Positions 28,843-30,282 of a DNA stretch of 35,282 bases are shown here, piece after piece; position 1 is the first letter of the stretch, and each line of letters begins with the position of its first letter. The stretch is taken from assembly GCA_902766005.1 (NCBI GenBank), contig CACXCB010000343.1, positions 1-35,282 of the forward strand, given 5' to 3'. The notes beneath the pieces were generated by a model. It searched no databases and had not been told where the DNA came from. It saw only the letters and a list, made by a program, of their open reading frames with translations. Source of the stretch: an uncultured Erysipelotrichaceae bacterium. Lineage in GTDB: Bacteria > Bacillota_I > Bacilli_A > Erysipelotrichales > Erysipelotrichaceae. Position numbers and translations under genes: made by a program.

Positions 28843-30282
28843 AAAAAAATACCTGTATCCTTTCCGGATGGCTTTATCTGGGGTGCAGCATTGGCTGCCA
28901 ACCAGATGGAAGGTGCATGGAAAGAAGGAGGAAAGGGATGGTGTTTAGCGGATATCAGCCGTGCCCAGTATGATCTTCCTCCCAATCAGCGTTACAACAT
29001 TGAGATCGATACAGATTTCATCCAAAAAGCAATGCAGGAAGAGGATACGCTGTATCCGAAAAGAAGAGGAATTGATTTCTATCATACGTATAAAGAAGAT
29101 CTCAAACTCCTTGCCGGTACAGGCATGAACAGCTTAAGAACTTCTGTTAACTGGGCCAGAATTTTTCCGAATGGAGATGAAGAAGAACCGAATGAAGAAG
29201 GCTTGAAATATTATGATGCGCTGATTGATGAGATTATTAAAAACGGTATGGAGCCGATGATAACGATAAGCCATTATGAAATGCCTTTAAACCTGACACT
29301 CAAATATACGGGATGGTATTCAAGAGAACTGATCACTTTCTTTACAAGGTATTGTGAAGTTCTGTTTAAAAGATACAAGGGAAAGGTAAAAAAGTGGATC
29401 ATTGTTAACCAGATCAACCTGATTGTTCATGAATCATTCAATCATCTGGGCATTGCTGCAGATAAGGTTGAGAATCTGCTGGAGGCAAAATACCAGGGTG
29501 TGCATAATGAAATGACAGCCTGCGCTTTAGCTACAAAGAAAGCCCATGAAATCGATCCCAATAACGAAATAGGCATGATGTTCTGTTCAAACCTGACATA
29601 CCCATGTTCTACAAAACCGGAAGACAATTTCTGGAATTTGCGACATAACCAGATGGAATTGCTCTATGGAGATGTCATGGTACGTGGATATTATCCGGGT
29701 TATGCACTGCGTTATTTTCATGATAACGGATTGAATATTGAGATTACGGAAGAGGATGAAAAGGCTTTATGTGAAGGTACGGTGGACTTTGTTTCCCTGT
29801 CTTATTATTACACACGTTTATCCGGAGAACAGCCTTTCCTGCATTCCAAGCTCGGTCAGATTCCCAATCCCGAATTAAAGGCCAGTGACTGGGGATGGGC
29901 AATTGATCCGATCGGTTTGCGTTATGCATTGAACGTTTACTGGGACAGATATCAGAAACCGATCTATATTACCGAAAACGGACTTGGTGCATATGACAAA
30001 GTGGAAGAAGACGGCTCGATTCATGATCCGTATCGTATTGAATACATGAAGTCTCACATCGAACAGATGAAGGAAGCAATCATGGATGGCGTGGACTTAC
30101 GTGGCTATTATCCATGGGGACCGATTGATATCGTTTCCTGTTCGTCCTCGGAAATGGAAAAGAGATATGGATTTATTTATGTCGATTATGATAACTACGG
30201 AAACGGTACAGGCAACAGAAGCATTAAGGACAGCTATTACTGGTATCAGAAAGTGACTTCCTCCAATGGAGAAGAGCTGTAA
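28840..30282 (+). CDS. Glycoside hydrolase family 1, 6-phospho-beta-glucosidase-like, acid/base Glu replaced by Gln
   Basis: 480 residues, no signal peptide. The GH1 barrel is complete: [20 protein letters not shown] at the start, [10 protein letters not shown] near 143-152, nucleophile Glu379 in ITENGLG, and the subfamily motif [15 protein letters not shown] near 435-449 that binds the 6-phosphate in 6-phospho-beta-glycosidases. The acid/base motif, usually NEP or NEIN, reads VNQIN: Gln191 (codon CAG at 29410-29412) takes the place of Glu. In GH1 a Gln here is known from plant myrosinases, which act on S-glucosides. It is followed two bases later by an RNase Z-like gene. The start is ambiguous: AGGAG lies 14 bases before this ATG, whereas TTG at 28816 precedes it. 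Confidence 0.9.

Follow-up and report, generated by a model that had tools for sequence, protein, structure and literature searches.

A conserved bacterial clade of 6-phospho-beta-glucosidase-like GH1 proteins with glutamine at the acid/base position

Our analysis of a 35,282-nucleotide stretch of DNA from an uncultured rumen Erysipelotrichaceae bacterium (contig CACXCB010000343.1; hereafter the window) revealed a GH1 protein in which the acid/base glutamate is replaced by glutamine, and a conserved bacterial clade that shares this change. We propose, with a probability of roughly 0.58, that the protein is a cytoplasmic retaining 6-phospho-beta-glycosidase of a distinct Gln clade, acting on substrates whose leaving groups need no protonation. 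The natural substrates are probably unusual plant glycosides that do not require acid assistance.

The gene, which like all features described below lies on the forward strand, is an open reading frame of 480 amino acids (28840..30282) with no internal stops. Read directly in this frame, positions 29404..29418 (GTT AAC CAG ATC AAC) encode VNQIN, with Gln191 encoded by CAG at 29410..29412. The protein belongs to GH1 by its Pfam match (PF00232, Glyco_hydro_1; 400 bits versus a cut-off of 22.6), its predicted (beta/alpha)8 fold and a Glu nucleophile in an ENG motif, this being Glu379 (GAA, 29974..29976) in TENG. In the AlphaFold model, whose mean pLDDT is 93.5 and drops to about 76 in the active-site loop that follows strand beta4, this strand spans residues 185-189 and VNQIN stands at its end, where GH1 enzymes other than myrosinases carry the acid/base Glu. 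An earlier note on this DNA had read Gln in place of that Glu and suggested an alignment with GH1 phospho-glycosidases; the alignment and a codon comparison agree with the reading, as Gln191 falls opposite the acid/base Glu of 6wgd, 8ysv and E. coli BglA, in a column that is Glu in all 30 Glu-type relatives of our genome scan. By alignment the protein thus has the combination typical of myrosinases, Gln at the acid/base position with an intact nucleophile. The solved structures that match the model best are all 6-phospho-beta-glucosidases, led by 6wgd (Z 57.8, 50% identity). None of the NCBIfam cut-offs for 6-phospho-beta-glucosidase (EC 3.2.1.86) was reached, the top score being 528 bits versus 639 required by PRK09593.

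Residue roles were taken from LpPbg1 (PMC3605045) and compared across 42 diverse Gln-bearing members of the clade. The phosphate-binding residues Ser432, Lys438 and Tyr440 of LpPbg1 (PMC3605045) correspond to Ser435, Lys441 and Tyr443 of the window protein (30142..30168); Lys441 and Tyr443 are invariant in all 42 sequences and Ser435 is kept in 39. Gln at the acid/base position and the glycone residues Gln22, His145, Asn190, Glu379 and Trp426 are likewise invariant (42/42), which argues that the active site is under selection and upholds the earlier claim that the nucleophile and the 6-phosphate site are intact. At position 434, the equivalent of LpPbg1 Ala431, the Gln sequences have Cys, Ser or Ala and never the Trp of 6-phospho-galactosidases. 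In the window protein it is Cys434 (30139..30141); with the galacto-O4-binding Trp missing, galactoside specificity was rejected, and this residue together with the Ser/Lys/Tyr phosphate site assigns the protein to the gluco-type, as in EC 3.2.1.86. On the aglycone side, LpPbg1 uses Asn183 and Arg267 to hydrogen-bond a +1 sugar (PMC3605045). The equivalent of Asn183 is Leu194 in 39/42 Gln sequences, at the start of a loop that seems to have been rebuilt (Leu194 to Glu198, 29419..29433), and that of Arg267 is Gln271 (29650..29652) in 36/42. With both hydrogen-bonding residues replaced, a sugar seems unlikely to be the aglycone. That the +1 site was rebuilt while the sugar site was retained is suggestive only, because positions 194 and 271 vary among Glu-type enzymes too.

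The glutamine is neither an error nor a sign of decay. In a one-genome-per-species scan, which yielded 80 relatives (some of them partial), the 48 that are about 60% identical or closer all carry Gln, nearly all within the motif VNQINLIxHES, and Gln is kept in every relative of at least 54% identity. Two further relatives at 50-54% identity (L069, L071) have Gln in different loops, and another at 52% (L070) and the remaining 29 have Glu. The nearest relatives write the conserved Gln with both CAG and CAA, which rules out a sequencing or assembly error, one of the two objections that the earlier note had raised against itself. The other, close homologues with Glu, failed as well: the close ones all have Gln, and only one protein (L117, 53% identity) has Glu in a similar context. 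Purifying selection on the gene is strong, with a dN/dS of 0.033 against the nearest relative (L021, 94% identity) and about 0.03-0.05 among comparisons with unsaturated synonymous sites; this and the lack of stops rule out a pseudogene. The Gln-motif pattern matches the window's genome once, at the window itself, and the alignable GH1 paralogues have Glu at the acid/base position. This genome has an unusually large GH1 set, with about 28 genes in an assembly of 4.05 Mb (366 contigs, 6.5% contamination).

Trees of 104, 65 and 47 proteins, built with plant and aphid sequences left out, all group the Gln proteins together, and the clade falls with bacterial Glu-type phospho-glucosidases; from this grouping we tentatively infer that it arose independently of the plant and aphid enzymes. 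When more distant members were added, the Gln sequences and a single Glu sequence (L117) formed one clade with support of 100/100, which did not change after the motif loop was removed. Members come from Erysipelotrichaceae, Lachnospiraceae, Oscillospiraceae, Clostridiaceae, Enterococcaceae and one Treponema MAG, and include the cultured strains Gemmiger formicilis ATCC 27749, Faecalitalea cylindroides ATCC 27803 and Clostridium oryzae DSM 28571. The gene is patchily distributed within the window's genus, and Gln-type genes are also found on plasmids of Niallia taxi and Enterococcus gilvus, the latter copy being annotated only as 'glycoside hydrolase family 1 protein'. No description of a bacterial GH1 protein with a natural Gln acid/base was found in the open-access literature searched. 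The earlier note had regarded the single protein as new; the change is real, but the protein is no singleton, as it belongs to a conserved clade that in most lineages has a dedicated PTS.

Subtype A, that of the window protein, has an invariant Glu at +7 from Gln191 (Glu198), which is missing from subtype B (CNQVNLLPTVMF), subtype C (INQINMLGWGDF and kin) and others. Genes of subtypes A and B are adjacent within one operon in several Erysipelotrichaceae, which suggests that they share sugar and linkage class and differ in aglycone. The Glu-bearing L117 protein (L117:2-1417, on a contig that starts within the gene) comes from the same genus as the window's host and reads FNEINLIMQESFNH, with the codon GAA. 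It is nested beside subtype A inside the Gln clade and keeps the subtype A loop (ESFNH), with other subtype A residues altered. Forcing the Gln sequences together without it cost 12 log units (AU p = 0.053). It is probably a natural Gln to Glu reversion, which we favour over a Glu relative that branched early.

The gene neighbourhood hints at the route by which the substrate enters the cell. Among subtype A loci outside the window's lineage with at least 1.8 kb of upstream sequence, 30 of the 33 have genes for lactose/cellobiose-family EIIB, EIIC and EIIA upstream of the GH1 gene on the same strand (annotated as PTS genes in E. gilvus). The linked EIIC at these 30 loci is at least 53% identical to the L058 copy, and domain searches found a divergent PRD/Mga-type regulator at most of them; the exceptions have a different EIIC (L057, L059) or none (L042). 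Glu-type control loci had a close EIIC in 0/30 cases and a distant one (22-26% identity) in 3/30. The Gln-type protein is the sole glycosidase of many PTS operons, and in one locus (L065) a second Gln GH1 gene lies between the PTS genes and the Gln GH1 gene. Some observations count against our main reading: a dedicated PTS is adjacent in 0/11 loci of the window's lineage with enough upstream sequence, and no recurrent gene beside the operon in the compared loci indicates a substrate or aglycone, no family beyond PTS, GH1 and a few others recurring there. The PTS linkage is lost in the window's lineage, and the best match to the dedicated EIIC in the window's genome has 29-32% identity, so no close copy is present. 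Other neighbours include a PTS enzyme I gene near the operon in L049-L053 and L060, a conserved protein of about 142 amino acids with no Pfam or NCBIfam match, near or behind the Gln-type gene in 13 loci (e.g. L043:11001-11429), and a YczE-like membrane protein gene directly after it in L056 (9446-10054), L055 and L060, one of which is a Treponema MAG.

Within the window, a gene for an MBL-fold hydrolase (30285..31160; ORF and domain search) starts two bases past the GH1 stop and is probably co-transcribed with the GH1 gene. Its best solved sequence relative is 8gyg (E 7e-18), an arylsulfatase of the MBL type, and PNGM-1 and RNase Z follow closely. A weak terminator-like hairpin (31154..31181; one found versus 1.6 expected in shuffles) lies behind it, followed by a carbohydrate ABC transporter recognised by domain searches (31263..35282; ATPase, two permeases and a binding protein truncated where the window ends), which seems to form a unit separate from the GH1 and MBL genes. 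Among the loci compared, the GH1, MBL and ABC transporter arrangement is found besides the window only in L021 (94% identity); given this narrow distribution and the intervening hairpin, we rejected the transporter as a GH1 partner.

In the mechanism that we propose, a dedicated lactose/cellobiose-family PTS would in most lineages import a beta-glycoside and phosphorylate it at O6. The phosphate and glycone sites, both conserved, would bind the sugar, Glu379 would attack C1 and the aglycone would depart unprotonated, as a group that leaves readily (thiolate, carboxylate, acidic phenol or enol, or N-linked); then, in the manner of plant myrosinase, water would hydrolyse the glycosyl-enzyme with no carboxylate serving as the usual base. 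We infer hydrolysis itself, the leaving-group class and the second step. Loss of the acid/base with retention of the rest fits substrates with leaving groups that can depart unprotonated, the principle on which myrosinase works, and the parallel with myrosinase drawn in the earlier note proved sound: Gln accompanies an intact nucleophile, myrosinase functions without a basic residue at the acid/base position (PMC6522968), and Gln at this site has precedent in thioglucosidases and in rice Os4bglu14 and Os9bglu33 (PMC1781453). Candidate substrates may be thioglycosides, and also acyl glucosides, acidic phenols or N-glycosides. A wider proposal, which we put forward tentatively and at somewhat less than even odds, is that a widespread PTS-linked bacterial clade evolved acid/base-free catalysis independently of plant myrosinases, for activated plant glycosides of a single class (S-, acyl- or N-linked), the adjacent subtypes A and B serving different aglycones.

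Thioglycosides are a possible substrate, and a special case of our main reading is a true phospho-thioglycosidase, a bacterial, PTS-linked counterpart of myrosinase that would act on S-glucosides (such as glucosinolates or desulfo-glucosinolates); we regard it as conceivable but not probable. The Glu to Gln change is identical to that of thioglucosidases (PMC1781453), and the replacement of Asn183 by Leu194 is hydrophobic. PMC8660893 describes sinigrin degradation in C. farciminis by a PTS and a GH1 6-phospho-beta-glucosidase, which makes an S-glycoside route via a PTS chemically plausible, and myrosinase-positive Enterococcus strains are reported in PMC6017806. However, PMC8660893 also implicates E. 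coli BglA and AscB in glucosinolate breakdown, and these are Glu-type to the extent examined (BglA by alignment), so Gln is not required for this breakdown. The thioglycosides, and glucosinolates in particular, that the earlier note suggested among other options are so far not supported. In the gene neighbourhood no thioglycoside-specific gene accompanies the GH1 gene, and little recurs beyond the PTS and GH1 genes. Gln271 in place of Arg267 and the negative Glu198 are unfavourable for a sulphate, and they presumably occupy the positions where myrosinase has its sulphate-binding basic residues, so that a cationic pocket would be expected there. The hosts of the clade live in the rumen, insect gut and soil, and some of these habitats are unlikely to be rich in Brassicales. 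Pocket charge and ecology thus argue somewhat against glucosinolates.

The protein might instead be an O-glycosidase of the ordinary kind whose acid/base has moved, with Glu198 (and His197) of the post-beta4 loop transferring the proton. Glu198 does not vary within subtype A and lies in the active-site loop seven residues past Gln191, but other Gln subtypes have Val, Gly, Met or Ala there and L117 combines Glu198 with a normal Glu; as Glu198 therefore does not track loss of the catalytic Glu, it is weakened as a substitute and this explanation is doubtful. Engineered acid/base to Gln mutants of GH1 enzymes are badly impaired, so the protein may have a non-hydrolytic function, and pseudoenzymes are usually recognised by a missing catalytic residue. 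Yet a phospho-glycoside sensor, a binder as the earlier note had also considered, or a dead enzyme is unlikely, given that Glu379 and every glycone residue are invariant, that the protein is the sole glycosidase of many PTS operons and that a PRD regulator already serves the operon as sensor. Enzymes lacking the general base are slow in hydrolysis and can prefer other acceptors, as thioglycoligases do; the protein might accordingly be a transglycosidase that takes a 6-phosphoglucosyl group from an activated donor and passes it to some acceptor that is not water, but with its PTS and PRD regulator the operon looks catabolic rather than biosynthetic, which makes this very unlikely.

The protein that we read as a phospho-glycosidase for activated leaving groups thus resembles GH1 6-phospho-beta-glucosidases (LpPbg1, SmBgl, E. 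coli BglA, B. licheniformis 6wgd) in fold, glycone and phosphate site and nucleophile, and most of its clade shares the PTS linkage of EC 3.2.1.86 enzymes; it departs from them in Gln191, in the replacement of Asn183 and Arg267 and in scoring under all NCBIfam cut-offs. Plant myrosinases and the two rice proteins share its Gln and Glu nucleophile, but unlike myrosinases the Gln clade lies among bacterial phospho-glucosidases, has a 6-phosphate site and is PTS-linked in most lineages; a base other than ascorbate, or none, would be expected in the bacterial enzyme. The C. farciminis system (CfPbgS) also pairs a PTS with a GH1 phospho-glucosidase, for an S-glycoside substrate, its PTS being a fused beta-glucoside-family EIIBCA whereas the Gln clade has separate lactose-family subunits.

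To our knowledge, plant thioglucosidases supply most of the known cases in which a retaining GH1 glycosidase has naturally lost its acid/base. If our reading is true, a bacterial clade that conserves this change, usually has its own transporter and counts cultured strains among its members would mean that the catalytic route arose again, and L117, if a natural reversion, may help to test how it evolves. The clade would also hint that gut bacteria process a class of dietary glycosides by a route that current annotation does not predict.
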